Source: Mesobacillus subterraneus (GTDB taxonomy: Bacteria > Bacillota > Bacilli > Bacillales > Cytobacillaceae). From it: a DNA stretch of 64,000 bases. Shown one piece after another: positions 3,407 through 13,492 of the stretch. Every line of letters starts with the position of its first letter. The first letter of the stretch is position 1. The DNA lies in contig NZ_JXIQ01000013.1 in assembly GCF_000934845.1 (NCBI RefSeq), positions 1 to 64,000 on the forward strand, given 5' to 3'. Under the pieces are notes generated by a model. It saw nothing but the letters and a program-made list of their open reading frames with translations. It searched no databases and was not told where the DNA came from. A program made the translations under genes and the position numbers.

Positions 3407-3563
3407 TTTCCATACCACCTCGAGTTATATGTGTTACAAAGTAAACTCTCCCCAATATACAAAATCACCTGTTGTTCTTCAACTAAATTGCCCTGTTTGT
3501 TCCATAAAGAATTCACCAAAAAAGGCGTTAATCCTTCTTAACACAAATAATGGTATAATTTAA

Positions 3564-3604
3564 AAAATGACCAAACCCATATATACCAAGGGCTTGGTCA
3601 TTTT
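3564..3604 (-). terminator. terminator closing the recombinase operon
   Basis: An 11 bp inverted repeat, AAAATGACCAA (3564-3574) with TTGGTCATTTT (3594-3604). On the minus strand it runs into a T-rich tail. It lies about 65 nt downstream of the last recombinase stop. Confidence 0.7.
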
Positions 3605-3667
3605 ATAACGGTTTTTAATAAAGCGTTAATTTATATTATACGAATAGTTACCTTTTCGAACTTCCAC

Positions 3668-4507
3668 TTACATCCATTGATCATAGATCTCTTTTCGTGC
3701 TTGATGGTACAATCGAGCATACAGCTGCGTTTGATGTAGTCCGTTATGTCCCAATAGAACTTGGATACATTCTAGCGGCATTCCCTTCATGGCTAAATGT
3801 GCAGCAAATGTATGACGTAACGTATGGGGTGTTAAGTGAATCCCTAGCTTTTTTGTATAGCCTTGAAATTTCAAGTTAATCGTACGAGAACACATCGGAC
3901 CTGTCCTTGACGTATTGACAAAAGCAAACGGTTGGGAATCCTCTCGTTTCTCTAAATAGGCTTTCAAATGTACTGCACACTCTCGTGTAAATAGGACAAT
4001 CCGCTCTTTTTTACGTTTCCCATTCGGAATCGTAATCATGCGTTCCGACCAGTTAATATCCTCTTTTTTCATATCAACTAACTCCATAAGACGCACACCG
4101 GTGGCATAAAACACTTCAATAACCGCCCTTTCCTCCACCTTCCCTTTTACCAATTGACGCAATTGTAACAGTTCATCCCTTTGCAGATATCTTGGTAGTT
4201 TATCCTCCGATTTCGGAATGGGTATTTTTTTCGCTGGATCCTTAGTAAGAAAACCTTCTTCTATGCAATATTTAAAAAACAGCTTGATCCCTGCTAATTT
4301 ACTGCTCACTGTAGCAACTTTATATTCCCTTGATTCTAAGGAAGACATCCAACCCCTAATATCTTTCGCATTCATTTCTGTGAATGGCTTCTCACAAAAA
4401 GCCAATAATTGATTCACTGCTAGTATATACAGATTCACTGTCTTTTCCTCTAATCGAAACCTATAATCCTCTTTAAATTGTTTCAAGCAATTATCTGCGA
4501 TTATCAA
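3668..4507 (-). CDS. Tyrosine recombinase/integrase, type A (second copy)
   Basis: A 279-residue site-specific recombinase of the XerC/D-like phage-integrase superfamily. An N-terminal SAM-like DNA-binding domain (to about residue 95) precedes a catalytic domain. Catalytic residues are visible: R in ATGVRLMELV, K in the GKRKKERIV turn, HxxR in HTLRHTFAAHL, and H plus Tyr in LLGHNGLHQTQLYARL. All look intact, so it is probably active. It starts at a TTG preceded by AAGGGGA and follows the stop of the type B gene by 13 nt. It is the fourth and last gene of a four-recombinase operon and is much closer in sequence to the gene at 5413-6243 than to its immediate neighbour. Confidence 0.93.
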   Translation of the reverse strand: MIIADNCLKQFKEDYRFRLEEKTVNLYILAVNQLLAFCEKPFTEMNAKDIRGWMSSLESREYKVATVSSKLAGIKLFFKYCIEEGFLTKDPAKKIPIPKSEDKLPRYLQRDELLQLRQLVKGKVEERAVIEVFYATGVRLMELVDMKKEDINWSERMITIPNGKRKKERIVLFTRECAVHLKAYLEKREDSQPFAFVNTSRTGPMCSRTINLKFQGYTKKLGIHLTPHTLRHTFAAHLAMKGMPLECIQVLLGHNGLHQTQLYARLYHQARKEIYDQWM

Positions 4508-4520
4508 AAAATCTATCCCC

Positions 4521-5402
4521 TTATCCCATATATTTTCGGTAAAGCGAAATGATCTCCCTCTTGGGAAGCCTAGCGTATATTTGTGTCGTCACAACATCAC
4601 TATGACCCAATTCATCTCCAATGAACGCTAAATCTGCCCCTTTCGCCAATAATTCAGTTGCGAAGGTATGACGTAATCGATGTGGATGCAAATTTGTTTT
4701 GAGTTTTGCTTTCTTTCCCAATTTCATTAAAATAAGCTGGATGGTTCGAACGTGTAACCGCTTACCTGTAGAGGTTACAAAAAGTGCCTTCAGAGAATTT
4801 TGACTTAAAGAGATATATCGCTCCAATAAAAGAGCACACTTTTCTGTAAAATGAACAAAGCGGATTTTTTTGCCTTTGCCTACTACGCGCGCTGTACGGT
4901 ATTCAAGATTTACATCCTCTCGATTTAACTCACTTACTTCACTGACTCGACACCCTGTGGTAAGCAAAAATTCCACCAACACCTGATTTCGAAGAGAGGT
5001 GATTTCGCTATGATTACGAATTTTAGCAATTTCATCTTTCTCTAAGTACTTTGGAAGTGTTTGTGAAAGACGAGGAAACCATCGGCTTTTAACTGGTGAA
5101 CTATCTATATAATTTTCATTTATACAAAACTTGTAAAATGAAGATAGAATACTTAGCCGTAGTCTCAATGTTGCTTCACTAAAATGAGCTCCGTTATTTT
5201 TAAACCATTCAAGAATGGTATTTGAGGTCAAAGAGAGATAAGTTTCTTTCATATCCCCAAAAAAGTGTTCTAAAAAATGCCGATATGTAGTAATGGTATT
5301 TTGACTTCGGTTTGAAACTTTTAAACTTAATAAAAACTCTCCAATGATTTCCTGATTACTTTCATTCGGTAAGTCTTTCGACAACTCCCAGTAATTATTC
5401 AT
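4521..5402 (-). CDS. Tyrosine recombinase/integrase, type B (second copy)
   Basis: About 293 residues. N-terminal core-binding domain: EFLLSLKVSNRSQNTITTYR. Catalytic domain: TTGCRVSEV (Arg I), GKGKKIRFV (Lys), HPHRLRHTFAT (HxxR), ELGHSDVVTTQIYARL (His and nucleophile Tyr). The best start is the ATG of MNNYWELS, with AGGAGTGAGAAG directly upstream and 10 nt after the previous stop. An upstream extension to 5447 would overlap the preceding gene and lacks a ribosome site. It pairs with the adjacent type A gene, and the same A/B pairing recurs just upstream. Confidence 0.93.
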   Translation of the reverse strand: MNNYWELSKDLPNESNQEIIGEFLLSLKVSNRSQNTITTYRHFLEHFFGDMKETYLSLTSNTILEWFKNNGAHFSEATLRLRLSILSSFYKFCINENYIDSSPVKSRWFPRLSQTLPKYLEKDEIAKIRNHSEITSLRNQVLVEFLLTTGCRVSEVSELNREDVNLEYRTARVVGKGKKIRFVHFTEKCALLLERYISLSQNSLKALFVTSTGKRLHVRTIQLILMKLGKKAKLKTNLHPHRLRHTFATELLAKGADLAFIGDELGHSDVVTTQIYARLPKREIISLYRKYMG

Positions 5403-5412
5403 CTTCTCACTC

Positions 5413-6243
5413 CTATTGGTATAGATCATATTGTTTTTTACGTGCATGTTCCATTAATCGTGTATAAATGCGAGTACTATTAATATCTACATGACCCAGG
5501 AGATCCTGAATGTAACTTTGAGGCATATTTTTTTCTGCTAGGTGTGCGGCAAATGTATGACGTAAAGTATGGGGGCTCACCTTAAAACCAAGTGATTTGG
5601 AGAAATTACGAAAGTTTTTTTGTATATATTCCCGGTGAAGTGGACCTCCTCTACGATTTGCAAATAAGAACATGCTATTTGTTTCTCGTTTTTCCAGGTA
5701 TAGTTTTAAGCGTTCCGCACAATCGTGCGAAAAAAGGACAAATCTCTCTTTGGTTCCCTTTCCTTTGCGTATCCATATTTGCCTGGTATCCCATTTAATA
5801 TCCTCTAATTTGATTTGTAATAGCTCACTAACCCGTACGCCTGTGGAATATAAGGTTTCAATGATAGGACGAAATTGGTAATCATTCCGTGTTAATTCTT
5901 GTAACTCGGCCAACTGGCGCCTACTTAAGTAGTATGGAAGGACATCATCTTTCTTAGGGGTTTTTACCGTTGACAATGGATTTTTCTTCAGGAGATTTTC
6001 TTCCATACAGTATTGATAAAATGACTTCAATCCTGATAGTTTAATATGTATCGAACGTTTTTTAAGACCTTTTTCCTCTAGGGAGGCAAGCCATGCTCTT
6101 ATATCAGCAGCCTTCACTTCACTAAATCCTTTTTTACAAAAGCTGAAGAATTGTTGAAGCGAAAGTCTATAACTTCGGATTGTTTCTTTACTAAACCTTG
6201 ATTGATGATCGTCAAAAAATGACGCTAATACTTCTTCGTTCAT
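5413..6243 (-). CDS. Tyrosine recombinase/integrase, type A (first copy)
   Basis: A 276-residue tyrosine recombinase closely related to the 3668-4507 product; both share phrases such as LPHTLRHTFAAHLA-like, LLGH and RKxxYDxx at the C-terminus. Catalytic residues: STGVRVSELLQ, GKGTKERFV, SPHTLRHTFAAHLAE, LLGHVDINSTRIYTRL. It follows the type B gene at 6250-7137 by 6 nt, so translation is probably coupled. Its own substrate sites are unknown. Confidence 0.93.
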   Translation of the reverse strand: MNEEVLASFFDDHQSRFSKETIRSYRLSLQQFFSFCKKGFSEVKAADIRAWLASLEEKGLKKRSIHIKLSGLKSFYQYCMEENLLKKNPLSTVKTPKKDDVLPYYLSRRQLAELQELTRNDYQFRPIIETLYSTGVRVSELLQIKLEDIKWDTRQIWIRKGKGTKERFVLFSHDCAERLKLYLEKRETNSMFLFANRRGGPLHREYIQKNFRNFSKSLGFKVSPHTLRHTFAAHLAEKNMPQSYIQDLLGHVDINSTRIYTRLMEHARKKQYDLYQ

Positions 6244-6249
6244 GGTTAT

Positions 6250-7137
6250 CTACCCCATTATATTTTGATAAGATGTAATCATGTCCTCAGTTAGAATACG
6301 TGCATATATACGAGTTGTGTTTAGATTGGAATGTCCCAATTCATCTGCTATAAATTCAATGGTTGCCCCTCTTGCAAGCATGTTTGTAGCAAACGTATGG
6401 CGACAACAATGAGGATGCAACGATTGATTTAACCCAGCCTTTTTTCCAATTTTCCTCGTAATATAATAGATGGATTTGGGTCCTATACGTTGATCGGAAT
6501 TACTCAAGAATAATGGATCTGATTCTTTACAGATTCTTGTATGTATATAGTCCTTCAATACAAGGGCACACTCTTCCGAAAAATGCACCTTTCTAATTTT
6601 CTTTCCTTTTCCCGTTACCTCAGCTGTTCTTTTTTCTAAATTGACATCTTTTATAGAAAGATTAGAAACTTCCGAACTTCTGCATCCTGACGAAAATAAA
6701 AATAGCATCAGTGCACGATCACGAAGAACCGAATTTTCTGTTGTAAGCTTTACTTTAGCAAACTCATTCTCGCTTAAATACTTGGGTAAGGACTTTGGAA
6801 TTTTGGGTCTCCATCTTTTTTTAATAATGACATTTTCTATATACTCTTCCGCAAGACAAAATTGCAAAAATGATGATAGTGCAGTTAGGTAAGCATCTAC
6901 CGTCTTTTCCTTTTTTCCATTAGTGAAATGTAAAAAGCATTTTCTCACTTCATTGGTTGTTAATTGATTTAAAGGAAGAGTACATATGCTCAAGAACCGT
7001 TCTAAAAACCACCGATAGTTTCTTATTGTTCGTTCAGCTTTGTTTTCAAGTTTTAAACTTAGCAAATATTCATCCATGATCGCCCTTGTCGCTTCATCCT
7101 CAAGGTTACTCTTCGTGTAATCACTAGATTCTTTCAT
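6250..7137 (-). CDS. Tyrosine recombinase/integrase, type B (first copy)
   Basis: A 295-residue tyrosine recombinase, the first gene of the operon. Catalytic motifs: SSGCRSSEVS, GKGKKIRKV, HPHCCRHTFATNML and ELGHSNLNTTRIYARI. In the HxxR box the usual LRH is CRH, but the His and Arg remain. It is similar in length and motifs to the 4521-5402 product, giving the order B'-A'-B-A. About 300 bp of AT-rich leader separates it from the intron. Confidence 0.93.
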   Translation of the reverse strand: MKESSDYTKSNLEDEATRAIMDEYLLSLKLENKAERTIRNYRWFLERFLSICTLPLNQLTTNEVRKCFLHFTNGKKEKTVDAYLTALSSFLQFCLAEEYIENVIIKKRWRPKIPKSLPKYLSENEFAKVKLTTENSVLRDRALMLFLFSSGCRSSEVSNLSIKDVNLEKRTAEVTGKGKKIRKVHFSEECALVLKDYIHTRICKESDPLFLSNSDQRIGPKSIYYITRKIGKKAGLNQSLHPHCCRHTFATNMLARGATIEFIADELGHSNLNTTRIYARILTEDMITSYQNIMG

Positions 7138-7415: not shown

Positions 7416-8802
7416 TCAGTTATCGTCAGATGAATCGAGTAGATGACTAGCCATTAGCTGGCTAGTCGACCTCTCACACCTTTCAGTTGTTATTGCCCGA
7501 TGGAGTACTTCGCTAAGAGATATGCGCCAGTATCCCTTACGGGAGTTAGCTGTTTTCATCGCTTTCGTATGGTCTATTCCGTATTTCCGAAGCATTTTAT
7601 ATCTTGTTTTTACTCTTTTCCATCGTTTCCAGATTAATTGCCTTAACCTGTGATTCAACCATTGTTGGATTTCTTTGACGAATATCTTCATGTACGATAC
7701 ACCGTAGTAGTTAATCCAACCCGTGGTTATTTGATTAATCTTTATTGTAATTTTTTCAAAGGTGCCAGGTCTTTTTCGACTTGTCTCTTTTCGTAGTTTC
7801 TCTTTGAATCGTTGTTTTGCCGACCTACTAGGTCGGCATCCAACTTTCCCAAGAGATTCTGTAAGTTGAAACCCAGGAATGTCCCAGATGTTGCCGTACA
7901 TATTTTGCTTTTCTTTTGATTAATTGTTAGCTGTAGATCTTCTTCGATATATTTCGAGACACTTTCCATGACTCGTTCACCTGCACGTTTGCTCTTCACG
8001 TAGATGCAAAATCGTCCGCATATCTTATGAAACGATGTCCTCTTCTTTCCAACTCTCTATCTAGTTTATTTAGATAGACATTAGCTAGAATCGGCGAAAG
8101 AGGTCCTCCCTGTGGAGTCCCTTCTGTTTTCTCGATGTAGATATCTTTGTCTAGAATTCCTGAACGAAGGAATTTCCATATGAGCTTCAATACGATTTTA
8201 TCGGAGATAAATTCCTCTAGGTAGGCTCTTAGCCTTTGGTGATGGATGGTATCGAAATAGCTTTTCAAATCACAATCCACCACCATTTTGTATCCCTCTT
8301 GATAGTATTGTTCTGCTCGTTTTATGGCTTGGTGTGCATCTCTTCCTACTCGAAATCCAAAGCTGTTGTTCGAAAAGTGTGGGTCAATGATGGGATTGAT
8401 GACTTGAAGGATCGCTTGCTGGACCACTCTGTCTAGAACACAGGGGATACCCAAGTATCTTTTCGAGCCATCTGGCTTTGGGATGGCGACTCGTTTGACT
8501 GGTTGAGGAGTATAGGTTCCATCTTCCAGTTTTTGTTTCAATGCTCGATAGTGTTTCCTCATGTGTGATTCCAGTTCATGTACGGTAATCCCATCTATAC
8601 CTGGAGCACCTTTGTTTGATTTTACTTTCTTGTAAGCTTTCCAAAGATTATCATCGGCAATAACTTCTTTTATTAAATTGATACCATCTTGTTCTTTCAT
8701 ATCCATGTTGACATCCCTATGCACTCCTATATACTCTTCAGTTTCGAACTTATCCATCAATAGGGAGCCATCTTTCGGTCTATACCACGATGTTTTCTGC
8801 AT
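7416..8802 (-). pseudogene. ltrA: Group II intron reverse transcriptase/maturase, frameshifted
   Basis: Intron-encoded reverse transcriptase/maturase in three pieces. Piece 1 (8802 to about 7996) holds KGAPGIDGI, the RT core (VDCDLKSYFDTIHH, EGTPQGGPLSPILANVYLNK) and the catalytic YADDF. One T is missing right after YADDF: restoring it gives FCIYVKSKRAGERV, which continues in a second frame (to about 7850). A second single-base slip near 7840-7860 shifts to a third frame carrying the maturase region (GCRPSRSAKQRFKEKLR, then GWINYYG, WKRWKR, NSRKGYWRIS). The normal C-terminus is replaced by readthrough into domain VI. Either genuine decay or several indel errors; the missing domain V favours decay. 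Confidence 0.9.
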
Positions 8803-9214
8803 TGAGTCAGGATGTCTACACCTCCTTGTTTTCCAAGATTTAAGATTGTTCAGTCCTTCATTCCGTTCTTGGAATTACTATGACCTCTGCTGACTTCTCA
8901 CGATAAATCTTGTCCAACCGAATGTTTTACGTTCGTCCGTGAGACCTCCCCGGGTAAGAGCGATAACCTTCTTCTCATGTAACTGCTATATTTACTGCAT
9001 GGGATTTGGGCAGTATTGGACTTTATCTTGTTTGGCAGATTCGTCCGTCCCAATTCAGCCTTTTATATAGTTTCTGTTCGTCAGTTCGAGAATTTGCATC
9101 CGGCTTCCTTCAGATTCCACGTCACCATGGACACTCATGCCATTTGCTAACAGTTCCTACTGCCAAGCCTGTAGTGGACTTTCACCACCAAGTTATCATC
9201 CATGCCGGGCGCAC
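7434..9214 (-). mobile_element. Group II intron, bacterial class C-like, inactivated
   Basis: On the minus strand the 5' end reads GTGCGCCCGG (9214 downward). Next come typical domain I text (GGTGGTGAAAGTCCAC, then AACTGTTAGCAAATGGCATG) and a reverse transcriptase ORF. The 3' end is recognisable as GGTGTGAGAGGTCG, a domain VI stem (CTAGCCAGCTAATGGCTAG) and CTACTCGATT, ending about 7434. The insertion point is immediately after the T-run of a Rho-independent terminator, as class C introns do. The ORF has two frameshifts, and the domain V segment expected before GGTGTGAGAGG appears to be missing, so splicing should be lost. The 3' boundary is approximate to a few bases. Confidence 0.85.
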
Positions 9215-9247
9215 CAAAAAACACCCCCCATTTTCATTAGGGGGTGT
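9215..9247 (-). terminator. Terminator of the Gabija-type operon, intron target
   Basis: Stem ACACCCCC (9221-9228) with GGGGGTGT (9240-9247), with a T-run on the minus strand at 9215-9220. The group II intron begins at the next base. It lies about 45 nt after the helicase stop. Confidence 0.85.
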
Positions 9248-9290
9248 GTGTGAGAAAAACTCGGAAAATTAACTTCTGGAACTAGATCTC

Positions 9291-11087
9291 TTATTTCTCT
9301 TGATAGTAGGTGCCATCATATTCAAACTTAGCCTGTGCTAATTGATGATTTGTTTGATAGGCGTATCCTGAATTTGCTTTCCTACCTTTTTCAGCAAATA
9401 AATGCAGATTTTTTTTTGCCCTAGACCCAATCACATATAACAATTTATTTGAAGCAGATTCCGTAATATAGTTTGGTTGGTTTCTAATAGAACTCCAGTG
9501 AGGAATATATCCCCAAAGTAGGCCAAACGCAATCACCGTTTCAAATTCTTCACCCTTAACACCATAGCAGGTATTTATAACAACACCAGTTGAAGGCTTA
9601 AATATATTCTTAAAGTACTGAATGTCATCTGGAGTGCCTATAAAATCAGTTGATTCATACCGTGTACGAATACCATCAAAGAATATATCCCATTGTTCCA
9701 CTAGCACATAGTAATCATTTAAATCGAGTTCTAGTTTATTGAAAAATGCTTTAAACGCTTTTTCCAAATATAGTATGCCATTTGATTCATTCGGTTTTAT
9801 GGAATTGATTATCTTAAGGTATCTTCTACAGTCTATGTACTCATTTCCCAAAGAACCGTTTGTATAGCCGTTTAAATCATTAATTAGGTGACTCATCCAT
9901 CTAAAACGGCTCATAGATGTTTTAGGGGTTATTTCTGATAAGAATAGCCTTGATAATTTCCACCAAAAACTCTCCCGATTTGTTGGCAATGGTGAAACCC
10001 CTGGTGCATCAAAAGGGATATCTGGTAAAACAGATTTTAATTTTTGTGCAAGTGGGGTTAAAAAATACCACTGGGGTGCTATGATACATATTTCGCTTGG
10101 CTTTACACCTTTTTTAATATTATGAGTAATGATATCAGCAAACTCTTTATAAAGATTATCCTTATTTGTTGTTGTATCAAGTGTTATATATCCATGCTCA
10201 TTTGCACGCTGACCAAGTGCTTCAATATTTACTTCTGTTGACTGAAAATTTCTGAAGAAGTCAACGATTCTTTGTGTAGATCGATAATTTCCAGGAATCT
10301 CTTTGAACACTATATCTTGATTTCCGATTTCCTCTTGTATCTCATATAGACTTTTAGGCGTTCCTCCTAATGAGCCATATATTGCCTGATCTGGGTCCCC
10401 TACTAGAAATAGTTTACACTTATCGCCAGCCACAGTGAGAACTTGTCCAATAATAGCGTATTGTAAATCCTGTGTATCCTGAAATTCATCAACAAAAATA
10501 TGAGAAAATATATTTGCCAGGTGTGAGCGTATTTTCTTATTGTTTATTAACATTTTATAGGAATAATAAAGCAATAAATCAAAATCTATTTCCTTGTTTT
10601 CTAAGATACTCTCATGGAACTCCTTTGCAATTGCATTATTATATGGGTCAGCATTCATATAATTCGCATTTCTATCCAGTCCTGTATTAATATCGCTAAA
10701 AAAAGGAATAGAATGTTTTTTCTTTAGTTCATTTAAAATTTTTCGCTTTTTGTTATCATCAATGATGGAAAATCCGTTAACTAATGCTGGTTCATATGCT
10801 GAATATGGTTTAATAATCCACTGATAGCAAAAAGAATGAATTGTGCCAGCCCAAAGCTGCTCTTGTGGAATGCCAAGGTCATCAAGTCTCCTTTGTATTT
10901 CCTCAGCCGCCCGATTGGTATAAGTGAGTGCAACAATAAACTTCTTTTTACTATCGAACCTCTCTAACTCATAAGCGATTTTGCGAGTTAAAACGCGTGT
11001 TTTTCCGCTACCTGGACAAGCAATCACAAGTGCATTTTTATCCGTTGTCACGGCATCTAGTTGGTTAGAATTTAAACCGTCTAACAT
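9291..11087 (-). CDS. UvrD-like helicase of a Gabija-type defence pair (GajB-like)
   Basis: A 598-residue superfamily 1A helicase. Motifs in order: Q-motif region LNSNQLDAV, Walker A ACPGSGKTRVL (about 28-38), motif Ia ALTYTNRAAEEI, motif II VDEFQDTQ (about 211), motif III GDPDQAIYG, motif IV region with NYRST, motif V GVKGEEFETVIAFG, and motif VI weakly as LLYVIGSRAKKNL (the consensus Arg-rich VALTRA is modified). Its start overlaps the end of the nuclease gene by 7 nt, so the two are translationally coupled. In Gabija systems GajB works with an OLD/TOPRIM nuclease against phage DNA; here this is inferred from architecture. It is longer than the roughly 500 residues of the described B. cereus GajB. 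Confidence 0.88.
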   Translation of the reverse strand: MLDGLNSNQLDAVTTDKNALVIACPGSGKTRVLTRKIAYELERFDSKKKFIVALTYTNRAAEEIQRRLDDLGIPQEQLWAGTIHSFCYQWIIKPYSAYEPALVNGFSIIDDNKKRKILNELKKKHSIPFFSDINTGLDRNANYMNADPYNNAIAKEFHESILENKEIDFDLLLYYSYKMLINNKKIRSHLANIFSHIFVDEFQDTQDLQYAIIGQVLTVAGDKCKLFLVGDPDQAIYGSLGGTPKSLYEIQEEIGNQDIVFKEIPGNYRSTQRIVDFFRNFQSTEVNIEALGQRANEHGYITLDTTTNKDNLYKEFADIITHNIKKGVKPSEICIIAPQWYFLTPLAQKLKSVLPDIPFDAPGVSPLPTNRESFWWKLSRLFLSEITPKTSMSRFRWMSHLINDLNGYTNGSLGNEYIDCRRYLKIINSIKPNESNGILYLEKAFKAFFNKLELDLNDYYVLVEQWDIFFDGIRTRYESTDFIGTPDDIQYFKNIFKPSTGVVINTCYGVKGEEFETVIAFGLLWGYIPHWSSIRNQPNYITESASNKLLYVIGSRAKKNLHLFAEKGRKANSGYAYQTNHQLAQAKFEYDGTYYQEK

Positions 11088-13228
11088 ACTTGATACCTCT
11101 CATAATTGTCAATCAGTAAAATAAGATCATCATTTTCATCTAAGTATTCTTCGCATAATTTTCTTAGCTCGCTATATGATTGCTCAATATCGTTCAGGTT
11201 TTCAAGAGCATCTACAAATTCACAAAATTCATCATAGCTGCAATGTTGCTCTATTCTGTACTTAGCCATTTTTACAAAGTGTTTAAATCCAATATGTCCC
11301 GCTGCAAACGCAATAGCTTTTAATATATAATCTGGAATGAATGTTTCATAAGTCAATTCCTCTGCAAGTGTAAGGGCAAACCATCCTTTTCCTACAACCT
11401 TATCCGCTAGACGAAGTGTTTCAAGTCCAACATTAATATTATCACTGGATTCTAATAAAGCCTTTGAATTGTCTATTGATTTTTTCGATTTATATATTTT
11501 GCTTAATGATTGTATTATTTCTCGCTGATTACCGGTTAAAACAAAATCAACTTCAAAAGTATGTTCTGCATAAAATGCTTCAACCCAAGGATTGTCTTTG
11601 CAGTATAAATCTAGTTTCTGTTTTCTTTCTTCCCCTTTTATTTCAGAGTTTCGAGATTTCCTTTCCTCAACAGTATCATCGTCTTTATTTACTTTTAATG
11701 GTGTAAGTGATATGTCATGATCAGTTATGATGGCACAATGTCTTCTGATTCTTTGATCATGGAATAAATTTGCAATATGGTCGAAGACTGTGCTATTCAT
11801 ATTAATTAAACTGACCCCCATTTCATCAAGGCTTAAACCAAAGACACTTTTAAAAAGAGCTGGTATTAGGACTAGCTCAGCATCTCCTTCAACTAGGATT
11901 ACACCTTTAGCAAACAAAAGGGTACTCCTTGTAGCATCAAGATAACGCTCAATTTTAGTGCACTCATTATCATCAAGTCCATTACTTGGATGACATACGA
12001 CAGTTTCGTTAACCTCTTTACATAGAATATTTACCGACTTTATTTTGTTTGCTGAAGAGATATGTGTCGAATGTGTTGTTGTAATGACCTGTGTATTCTG
12101 AAATTTGTAATTATCGAACAGCGTTTTCTGAATATGCGTATGAATGTGTGCCTCAGGCTCTTCGATTAATAGGAAATGAGCAGCTTTCTCTTCGGTCGGT
12201 TGCTTATACTCATATTCTAATAATTTTAACGTGATATAGATTAAATTTGCCCCGCCCAAGCTTAAATCTTCTAGTTTACCTTGATAGCTTGTATCTTCCC
12301 CATCTCCAACCCATAGTGTTAACGATTGGAACAGTTTATTTATATCTTCAGGAAGTTCAGAACGAATACTTACATTTGGTGCATATGTAAAGCCAATTGT
12401 TGAATCAAGTGTCTTTTTCACCTTTTCAGCCAATTCCTTAATCTCCGAGAGATTACTGATTGTTTCATTCAAATCTGTTACCTTGCTTGTAATATTTGAT
12501 GCAGCAGTTACTTGAATATTTTTTGCACTACCCCTTAATAAATTTAATAACGGGCTTTGTCTATTTTTACGTAATTCTGCCATAACATCTCGAAGAGCTT
12601 TAATATGCGTACATGCAATTTCTGATCGCACTAAAAATATTTGAGATGTTGTAATACCCAGCAAGTCCTTTTTTTCATCATCAGGATTAGGGAAAATAAT
12701 ATTTTCAAAGTCGCCAACCAATTCTTTATATACTGCTTCAACAGAAAAATCAGCTGTACCTCGAAAATGATAAACACCCTCATATTCATTTATAGTTATT
12801 TCGTTTAGAATTTCTTCAAGCTTTTGCTGATCTTTATCTTTATCAATAGATAGCTCGTATAATTTTTTTCTGAATTTTTTATTCGGCCGAAAATAGAAAT
12901 GATAAGAGCCGCTACTTGAAGCTTCATTAACATGTTCAAGTTTATGAGCTAAAATATTCGCTCCCTCACTTGAATCTAAATCTTCAAATTGAAGAGATAT
13001 AATAATCCAATGACCTTGCCATCTAGATAAATTCCTATTAAAATCGGTTTCTATTAATTTAGAAGCACTGATGGGTAGATTATTATCAATCATAAGACGT
13101 AATGCAAAAAATGCATTTGTCTTTCCTGAGCCATTTTCTCCTATAAGCGTATTTACTCCTGGTTGAAATAAAAAGTTTTGTGAACAGAAATTCCTGAAGT
13201 TTCTAATATACAGTTTTGAGATATACAT
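11081..13228 (-). CDS. OLD-family ATP-dependent endonuclease (GajA-like)
   Basis: About 715 residues. An N-terminal ABC-type ATPase opens MYISKLYIRNFRNF, with Walker A IGENGSGKT (about 28-36), signature LSLGGANLIYITLKLLE and Walker B FLLIEEPEAHIH. A C-terminal TOPRIM nuclease follows: LVEGDAELVLIPAL (metal-binding Glu) and IITDHDIS (DxD). This is the class 2 OLD layout that pairs with UvrD helicases and forms Gabija complexes. I start at the ATG preceded by GTAGGAGGGGAG; the frame stays open 31 codons further upstream without a ribosome site. It is larger than classical GajA (about 578 residues), with extra sequence between the ATPase halves and after TOPRIM, so it may be a distinct OLD-UvrD subtype. 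Confidence 0.88.
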   Translation of the reverse strand: MYISKLYIRNFRNFCSQNFLFQPGVNTLIGENGSGKTNAFFALRLMIDNNLPISASKLIETDFNRNLSRWQGHWIIISLQFEDLDSSEGANILAHKLEHVNEASSSGSYHFYFRPNKKFRKKLYELSIDKDKDQQKLEEILNEITINEYEGVYHFRGTADFSVEAVYKELVGDFENIIFPNPDDEKKDLLGITTSQIFLVRSEIACTHIKALRDVMAELRKNRQSPLLNLLRGSAKNIQVTAASNITSKVTDLNETISNLSEIKELAEKVKKTLDSTIGFTYAPNVSIRSELPEDINKLFQSLTLWVGDGEDTSYQGKLEDLSLGGANLIYITLKLLEYEYKQPTEEKAAHFLLIEEPEAHIHTHIQKTLFDNYKFQNTQVITTTHSTHISSANKIKSVNILCKEVNETVVCHPSNGLDDNECTKIERYLDATRSTLLFAKGVILVEGDAELVLIPALFKSVFGLSLDEMGVSLINMNSTVFDHIANLFHDQRIRRHCAIITDHDISLTPLKVNKDDDTVEERKSRNSEIKGEERKQKLDLYCKDNPWVEAFYAEHTFEVDFVLTGNQREIIQSLSKIYKSKKSIDNSKALLESSDNINVGLETLRLADKVVGKGWFALTLAEELTYETFIPDYILKAIAFAAGHIGFKHFVKMAKYRIEQHCSYDEFCEFVDALENLNDIEQSYSELRKLCEEYLDENDDLILLIDNYERYQVC

Positions 13229-13492
13229 ACTCTTCTCCCCTCCTACATCTGAAAAGGCTTCATTACCTATTTTAGCACTTTTTGTAAATATATTGATTGA
13301 TTGCTCGATTAATGAACACATCTGTTGAAACAGAACGGGAATTAATCCACTGGTATAGTAGTAAAAAGTTGGGAACTAAGTTTATATCTGTGTATCCCAT
13401 AAACATTGAAAACATGTTAAATAAAAAAAGCCACGTCATTAGCCTGGCATTTTGTTGCATGTAAAGACTACCTATGTATAATCGATTATTTG

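Follow-up and report, generated by a model that had tools for sequence, protein, structure and literature searches.

Tyrosine recombination requires four protomers and four strand cuts, for which one or two enzymes generally suffice. Among prokaryotic DNA transposons that rely on tyrosine recombinases, a study from 2023 names five groups, i.e. integrative conjugative and mobilizable elements (ICE/IME), SE, GInt, recombinase-in-trio (RIT) elements and Tn554 (PMC10214605). Here we describe an operon of four tyrosine recombinase genes, hereafter the quartet, found in a 64,000-nucleotide stretch of the Mesobacillus subterraneus genome (assembly GCF_000934845.1, contig NZ_JXIQ01000013.1, positions 1 to 64,000; hereafter the window). 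Its gene content fits none of SE, GInt, RIT and Tn554, and we consider it likely, with a probability of roughly 0.7, that the quartet is the recombination module of a mobile-element group distinct from these.

With RIT elements the quartet shares the arrangement of adjacent tyrosine recombinase genes in one operon, but RitA, RitB and RitC are of three distinct kinds with overlapping frames, whereas the quartet consists of two related pairs. RIT elements furthermore end in terminal inverted repeats. The need for three recombinases in RIT was described as hard to see in a survey from 2012 (PMC3414803). GInt and SE are likewise site-specific elements with several recombinases and cargo, and GInts have a gene as their target, direct imperfect repeats of 10-11 nt and excision as a circle, to be compared with direct repeats of about 10-19 nt in the relatives of the quartet. 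However, GInt and SE sets are described as including a recombinase-fold protein without catalytic residues and a further small protein (PMC5385486, PMC10214605), ginABCD of GInt comprising three integrases, of which GinC lacks the first catalytic arginine, plus a small helix-loop-helix protein, whereas in the quartet operon all four recombinases have the complete motif and there is no further gene. Tn554 has one ordinary and one large recombinase together with TnpC, in contrast to the four window proteins of 276-308 aa (the longest B reading frame included). The closest proteins overall are those of the XerC/XerD-dif system, which the window's subclade also resembles in having a short, two-armed site, but the quartet differs in its four enzymes, in forming clades apart from the host Xer pair and in being tied to insertion. 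No description of the quartet or of its sites was found among the matches listed from the open-access literature.

Four complete recombinases and their relatives

The original prediction, made from the sequence of the window without database searches, was of four intact tyrosine recombinases in one operon with the order B'-A'-B-A and gaps of 6-13 nt, and this description holds: there are four minus-strand open reading frames (ORFs; Table 1), the intergenic distances are 6, 10 and 13 nt when likely starts are used, and the R-K-HxxR-H-Y set is complete in A, A', B and B' as had been claimed. The likely start of B at 5402 is preceded by AGGAGTG. Each protein combines a SAM-like core-binding domain with a catalytic phage-integrase domain, all four matching Phage_integrase (E 6e-37 to 1e-39), and pairwise identity is 45% for B'/B, 45% for A'/A and 30-33% between the A and B kinds. 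Of the named models, XerA, XerC and XerD come closest, and the solved structures nearest to A' are those of XerA, XerC-like and XerD proteins. Among the NCBIfam models, the cut-off of XerA_Arch (220) is narrowly exceeded by A' (221.9) and B' (224.8) and missed by B (by 0.1 bits) and A (by 21 bits), and the XerC and XerD scores are below cut-off for all four.

In a tree of 122 proteins from 24 genomes chosen among 39 loci (proteins longer than 340 aa were trimmed to the last 300, and the empty row IntG000_C188 and the near-copies rel_L013, L021, L022 and L023 were left out), A and A' form one clade and B and B' another, both with support of 100/100 and neither including the host's own pair of Xer proteins; RitA, RitB and RitC of plasmid pHG1 are likewise apart, its five Rit proteins lying outside the two clades on long branches. 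The two clades imply that a pair was duplicated early and that both pairs were retained. A' is monophyletic (98/94), and the B', B and A labels need two, three and two changes because deep clostridial members fall between the types; all four labels jointly need four changes, the minimum possible being three, and the fork joining A and B is weakly supported (81/44). The earlier proposal that an A/B unit had been duplicated in tandem and had then diverged is thus upheld as regards the duplication, of which all four copies were kept, but not as regards a local origin, since the event is old and orthologous sets occur in many genera of Bacilli and in Heliobacterium. With the RIT proteins included in the tree, the four did not fall into unrelated families, which the original prediction had named as the outcome that would speak against it.

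Counting proteins longer than 250 aa, and with the near-identical genomes G150, G340 and G379 included (G and L numbers are our handles for genomes and loci), the full catalytic sextet is present in all 26 A and all 30 B proteins, in 35 of 36 B' proteins (one is truncated) and in 36 of 40 A' proteins, and the sextets are complete in 24 of the 25 sets of intact order, the sole exception being A' of G336. Eight of the 30 B proteins have an extended N-terminus (514-638 aa in total) that reads as a repeated core-binding domain, three or four in tandem; the one scanned against Pfam, B of L152 (10460-12376), contains three SAM_1 stretches. Unusually conserved C-terminal tails, as would be expected for fixed docking, were not found in a comparison from which near-copies and deep clostridial loci were omitted.

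Open frames in the order B'-A'-B-A were found in 25 genomes of Bacilli and Heliobacterium, and a chance arrangement is excluded because the order of the window recurs in the 24 others. Hosts of intact sets include Neobacillus, Lederbergia, Sporosarcina, Lysinibacillus, Peribacillus, Gracilibacillus, Ureibacillus and Heliobacterium. Eighteen of the sets belong to 29 loci from the scan of a large collection (84,980 genomes), which gave 368 candidate stretches with a relative, the best 80 being kept; 29 of these 80 are at 47% identity or more and the next one is at 33%. The further sets are those of the window, G078, G174, G311, G336, G340 and G379. The other 11 of the 29 loci are broken, lie at contig ends or are variants, and with three broken sets (G287, G315 and G425) the total is 39 distinct loci. 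A search with B' (E at most 1e-45) found relatives in 18 of 397 genomes of the order and in 2 of 398 genomes of a sample of the class, the window's own genome being counted in both. No close relative was found in any of 20 congeners, the best identity being 36% (G004 and G010 are only 87% and 66% complete), so the quartet is accessory; comparison with genomes lacking the island did not reveal fixed chromosomal content, the second outcome that had been held to refute the prediction. In the Peptococcaceae loci L143 and L146 five recombinase genes stand in a row, the order in L143 being B'-A'-A''-B-A and the fourth gene of L146 being typed as B'-like. An origin from phages was considered and rejected, since the scan of viral_contigs gave no relative and the 39 and 249 phage records obtained by tblastn with B and A' were all below 60% identity (best among the matches listed 32% for B and 35% for A'), and so was a plasmid origin, the seven plasmid records reaching at best 35% identity.

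A right end and insertions in surface-protein genes

The original prediction could point to no ends of the element. A right end has now been located past gene A, consisting of a hairpin and a core, and both ends are seen in relatives, although the left end in the window has still not been found. Between the window and Lederbergia lenta (G410) the DNA shows 80.5% identity over a stretch that begins 159 bp ahead of B' and reaches 143 bp beyond A; the A' proteins are 91% identical, and the DNA similarity stops at the right end, about 0.14 kb beyond gene A. A core past A was recognised in 17 of the 39 loci. The window type, a hairpin followed by a GATTAAC-type core (3525-3608 in the window), occurs in six of them (the window, L126, L128, G410, G379 and G340), the four that are in the tree forming one clade (100/99); the TTAACGC box is present in four of the five others (L126, G410, G379 and G340) and absent from L128. 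The other eleven loci (G174, G336, G391, G555, G261, L132, L136, L137, L141, L152 and L154) have the core GAAAGTGCGATTAAC or a variant of it, and in all eleven the core enters what looks like the headless C-terminal tail of a surface protein, some of these tails being open over hundreds of codons and others decayed.

In eight of these 11 surface-type loci a second core lies upstream in direct orientation, between codons 129 and 282 of a long ORF and always in the same reading frame (V-S-A-I-N or near it, the pattern being V-S/T/M-A/S-I-N). The eight two-cored elements carry a replacement tail and the quartet, and their core-to-core distances are 6.15 kb in G336, 6.30 kb in G174, 8.04 kb in L137, 8.08 kb in L152, 9.5 kb in L154, 10.0 kb in G261, 10.8 kb in G555 and 27.6 kb in G391, tail and quartet taking up most of the length in the smallest, of about 6.2 kb. 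By their Pfam matches the target genes encode SLH domains in G336 and L152, SbsC_C in G174 and G391 and Big domains in L137 and L154, G555 and G261 being taken up below. In 19 genomes with the quartet or its remains there are ten matches to the 13-mer GTGCGATTAACGC and none to its reversed control; nine of the ten are at surface-protein coding sequence (one of them in a decayed tail, in G336), and the tenth is outside any ORF. A 35-bp repeat of Metabacillus litoralis was rejected as a boundary, as it aligns as a partial right-end copy without the core.

The comparison of target sites by which the original prediction had expected ends to come to light gave direct repeats and also uninterrupted sites, in relatives. 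The displaced tail in Sporosarcina ureae DSM 2281 (G555, locus L142) is similar to the C-terminal portion of complete ORFs in G851, G821, G842 and G631 (78%, 74%, 64% and 60% identity in the matched part). In three of them (G851, G821 and G842) N-terminus and tail form one gene, and the upstream genes are as in G555, an SLH gene being the last before it; the two genes ahead of this SLH gene in the four genomes we take to be those of UDP-glucose dehydrogenase and a WecG-like transferase. G851 reads through the site as GAATCGGTAAGTGCGATTAACGCTAACGCTGTAACTGTAACATTC, whereas in G555 the left part, GAATCGGTAATGGCGATTAACGG, is found in the upstream gene and the right part, GGAAAGTGCGATTAACGCTAATGCTGTAACTGTAACATTC, behind the hairpin; the core AAGTGCGATTAAC is intact in G851 and G821, differs by a single base in G842 and has changed further in G631. 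The split site in G555 as against the joined site in G851 argues that an in-frame insertion swapped the tail of the G555 gene and left the old tail behind. A further displaced-looking copy of the G555 tail is present in G850 at 91% identity; it lies at about 1500-3435 of L213 (G850:C30) behind another end-like sequence (AAGTGCGATTAAC), and no high-identity quartet-type gene was found among the ORFs compared in 16 kb of this locus. The displaced tail of G174 has no homologue at E 1e-15 in three other genomes of its genus.

Hairpin-core ends with no quartet in the surrounding stretch compared were observed at 2106 of L116 (G000:C208), 3395 of L117 (G000:C168), 13952 of L115 and 2849 of L122, the last two following RHS-like genes as judged by eye; such ends may be relics or belong to elements moved in trans. 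In L121 (G216:C27) a tail-like ORF at 8243-9913 begins at the core and is possibly the residue of a departed element, the quartet of G216 being on a different contig.

It should also be mentioned that an insertion element of the surface-layer (S-layer) gene of Lysinibacillus sphaericus, with ORFs for a transposase, an integrase/recombinase and a helix-turn-helix protein, was described by Pollmann et al. in 2005 (via PMC3573754). Compared by description only, it resembles the surface-type loci in that an S-layer gene is followed by recombinase-type ORFs and then by an S-layer-like copy, but it was described with three ORFs whereas the quartet has four recombinases. By this arrangement the phenomenon was partly observed before.

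The window copy and competing explanations

In the window subclade the core matches a dispersed intergenic repeat, the putative target in place of a surface gene, and in the window one half of this repeat follows the core; matches to it were listed for at least 16 of 21 genus genomes searched. A second core at the far end is known from the eight surface-branch elements and from G410, whereas the window (64 kb searched) has none. The hairpin-core end of G410 occurs twice in direct orientation, 21.1 kb apart, which would fit the insertion of one element at the end of a second one. Neither a shorter piece of the core nor a repeat half was found as a left end in the first 24 kb of the window.

Upstream of the quartet lies a Gabija defence system that may be cargo of the element, and a decayed group II intron sits between the two. 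Downstream follow a NUDIX gene and then tRNA-Ala(GGC) at 2712-2784, and similarity to congeners ends at 2784 (G014, G007) or 2826 (G001), at or just past the tRNA gene. Extra tRNA 3' ends are found on the same contig in some congeners, e.g. 26 kb off in G014, and an island hotspot at tRNA-Ala is suggested. As the attachment site of the quartet tRNA-Ala was rejected because the NUDIX gene intervenes and because no second copy of the tRNA 3' end exists in the whole window, and it marks only a synteny break. A short ORF at 14031-14366 matches DUF5915 and is probably what is left of the C-terminal part of a gene for isoleucyl-tRNA synthetase.

Table 1. Quartet, right end and upstream features in the window, positions being counted from its first nucleotide
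Feature	Position	Strand	Remarks
Recombinase B'	6250..7137	-	295 aa; first gene of the operon
Recombinase A'	5413..6243	-	276 aa; starts 6 nt past B'
Recombinase B	4521..5402	-	293 aa from likely start; ORF open to 5447; 10 nt past A'
Recombinase A	3668..4507	-	279 aa; TTG start; 13 nt past B
First ATTAACGC box	3623..3630	-	between hairpin and gene A
Hairpin/terminator	3560..3608	-	just past A; conserved part of right end; 101-nt stretch holding it has z -5.6
Right-end core GTTAAGAAGGATTAACGC	3525..3542	-	built around GATTAAC
Half of dispersed intergenic repeat, putative target	3455..3524	-	flanks right-end core
Decayed group II intron reverse transcriptase	7416..8802	-	RVT_1 and GIIM in separate frames; group_II_RT_mat
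GajB, Gabija	9291..11087	-	PDLC00127, E 1e-233; upstream of quartet
GajA, Gabija	11081..13321	-	PDLC00072, E 2e-288; upstream of quartet

Defence genes were sought by running PADLOC on chosen neighbour ORFs, and families were matched near seven of the 14 loci examined whose right end was not recognised as of the surface-protein kind (a raw count), i.e. Gabija in the window and again in L143, Tmn and CBASS parts in G379, type IV restriction in L126, a DruE-like protein in L144, AbiD in L138 and AbiH in G078 (3.4 kb downstream). In six of the seven the first gene of any size upstream of B' is the defence gene, if the intron in the window is disregarded. The scanned ORFs of L128, G410, L146, L151, G311, G216 and G188 gave no PADLOC match, and the defence genes near quartets are an association to test. 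Downstream of the quartet at L031 (G078) there are a further integrase of 379 aa (9764-10903) and the AbiH-family gene (8386-9357), and SLH/Ig-like surface genes were seen nearby by eye.

Several observations weigh against the quartet being the module of a distinct group of mobile elements with ends as described. No left core is present within the 64-kb window (at up to two mismatches to AAGAAGGATTAACGC), so that the copy there may lack part of the element or be unable to move, and Gabija may simply adjoin it. The right-end core is unrecognised in the other 22 of the 39 loci, many of which are broken or at contig ends or perhaps targeted elsewhere, and hairpin-core ends lacking a quartet are also known from congeners and from other parts of the window's genome. 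The target in G555 is not an SLH gene, a pectate-lyase-like adhesive domain being its only Pfam match, and there is no Pfam hit in its G851 counterpart nor in the G261 target; an SLH gene does adjoin the target in both G555 and G851. Furthermore, the uninterrupted sites come from other species of the carrier's genus and not from sister strains, the second arginine is absent from A' of G336, and the viral_contigs scan was negative. The deep clostridial A and B are closer to the A' and B' sides, which makes their history less simple than a single duplication, and transfer between hosts may also be compatible with the tree. Recombination and transfer are themselves predictions from sequence.

Among the alternatives, the one that survives best is that the window copy is a relic in a tRNA-Ala island, with its left end lost and with neighbours that are unrelated arrivals. 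We regard this as a genuine possibility, since synteny with the congeners is lost at tRNA-Ala or shortly beyond it (at 2784 in two of them and at 2826 in a third), the window has no left core, and the intron between Gabija and the quartet is decayed; it is however in poor agreement with four open frames that have all catalytic residues and with a complete right end.

That the quartet is instead a chromosomal phase-variation device, which switches the tails of surface proteins and is not mobile, is in our view improbable. Several copies do lie between a surface-protein gene and a long-open headless tail (803 aa in G174, 650 in G555, 643 in L132, 1020 in L141, 827 in L152, 679 in G391 and 1005 in L154, and 895 in L139, which has no recognised core), and excision between direct repeats would re-join the N-terminus with the old tail. 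Such a device is however difficult to reconcile with the patchy distribution in order and class (18 of 397 and 2 of 398 genomes), with the facts that targets differ and that cores are 6 to 28 kb apart, and with related species that have uninterrupted sites. The switch and mobile-element readings are nonetheless compatible, as a mobile element can serve as a switch.

Still less probable is an integron-like system, in which the quartet would be the integrase, the hairpin-core attI, and the dispersed repeats attC-like with small-gene cassettes such as the NUDIX gene. The notion stems from palindromic-core repeats found among small same-strand genes in the genus, with a gene duplicated in G015, and from the many right repeat halves that are alike while left halves are of two kinds. 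However, congeners have the repeats without the quartet, several carrying a single recombinase of 280-284 aa from another clade, and a search for the pattern gave only 0-8 repeats per genome, which speaks against a large genus-wide cassette array. In addition, the window recombinases score 90-122 bits with TIGR02249 against a cut-off of 265, and the surface-branch elements are simple two-ended insertions. As a separate observation, palindromic repeats of the form GCGTTGATCC-AAGAA-GGATTAACGC are dispersed in L107, L111, L113 and L114 (congeners G015, G013 and G001) among small, mostly same-strand genes, one of which is duplicated in L107, and L107 and L111 have a single 284-aa recombinase of a different clade; this is possibly an integron-like system in Bacillaceae. 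Finally, that the quartet is a RIT-like transposon to which a fourth recombinase was added is very improbable indeed: consecutive recombinase genes in one operon and the doubled core-binding domain of RitA (PMC8138268), reminiscent of the extra domains of some B proteins, are outweighed by RitA, RitB and RitC of pHG1 falling outside all four types, albeit on long branches, by two related pairs with gaps of 6-13 nt in place of three unrelated kinds with overlaps, and by ends that in relatives are direct repeats of a short core.

Proposed mechanism and implications

The module, the right end, the two-ended in-frame insertions and the uninterrupted sites are shown by the sequence comparisons. On the reading that the quartet serves a mobile element, the core of an excised circle would recombine with its counterpart in the chromosome, which in the surface branch lies in frame within a surface-protein gene and past its N-terminal part. 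Upon integration, the N-terminal part of the resident gene would become fused to the tail that the element brings at its left end, and the old tail would be left without a head beyond the right end; excision as a circle between the direct repeats would reverse the replacement, and tail swapping may thereby alter the cell surface. The cargo in the window would probably be the upstream region with Gabija. The presence of four different complete enzymes furthermore suggests one strand cut per enzyme at fixed half-sites, each of the four acting at its own half-site and making one of the four cuts. A tentative extension, which we consider doubtful in its entirety, would make these elements a sixth group of tyrosine-recombinase transposons, working by an ordered heterotetramer, in which a surface tail-swapper was later re-targeted to move intracellular phage defence. 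CwpV of Clostridioides difficile switches by recombinase-driven inversion, whereas the surface branch would replace tails by way of an inserted element. CwpV, a phase-variable surface protein that gives protection against phages (PMC4737114), is a working analogy only.

Whether protomers are dedicated can be put to a direct test with the quartet, as its four enzymes are complete and the set is conserved. Patchwork evolution has been proposed for the S-layer genes of Lysinibacillus and relatives (PMC4902306), and the surface branch would provide a concrete mechanism for it. An intact S-layer is furthermore reported to be required for infection by some Bacillus phages (PMC9703825), and a change of the surface layer could thus affect phage sensitivity. 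If the proposal holds, the branch that swaps surface-layer tails would change the surface exposed to phages, and the window branch would carry defence systems.

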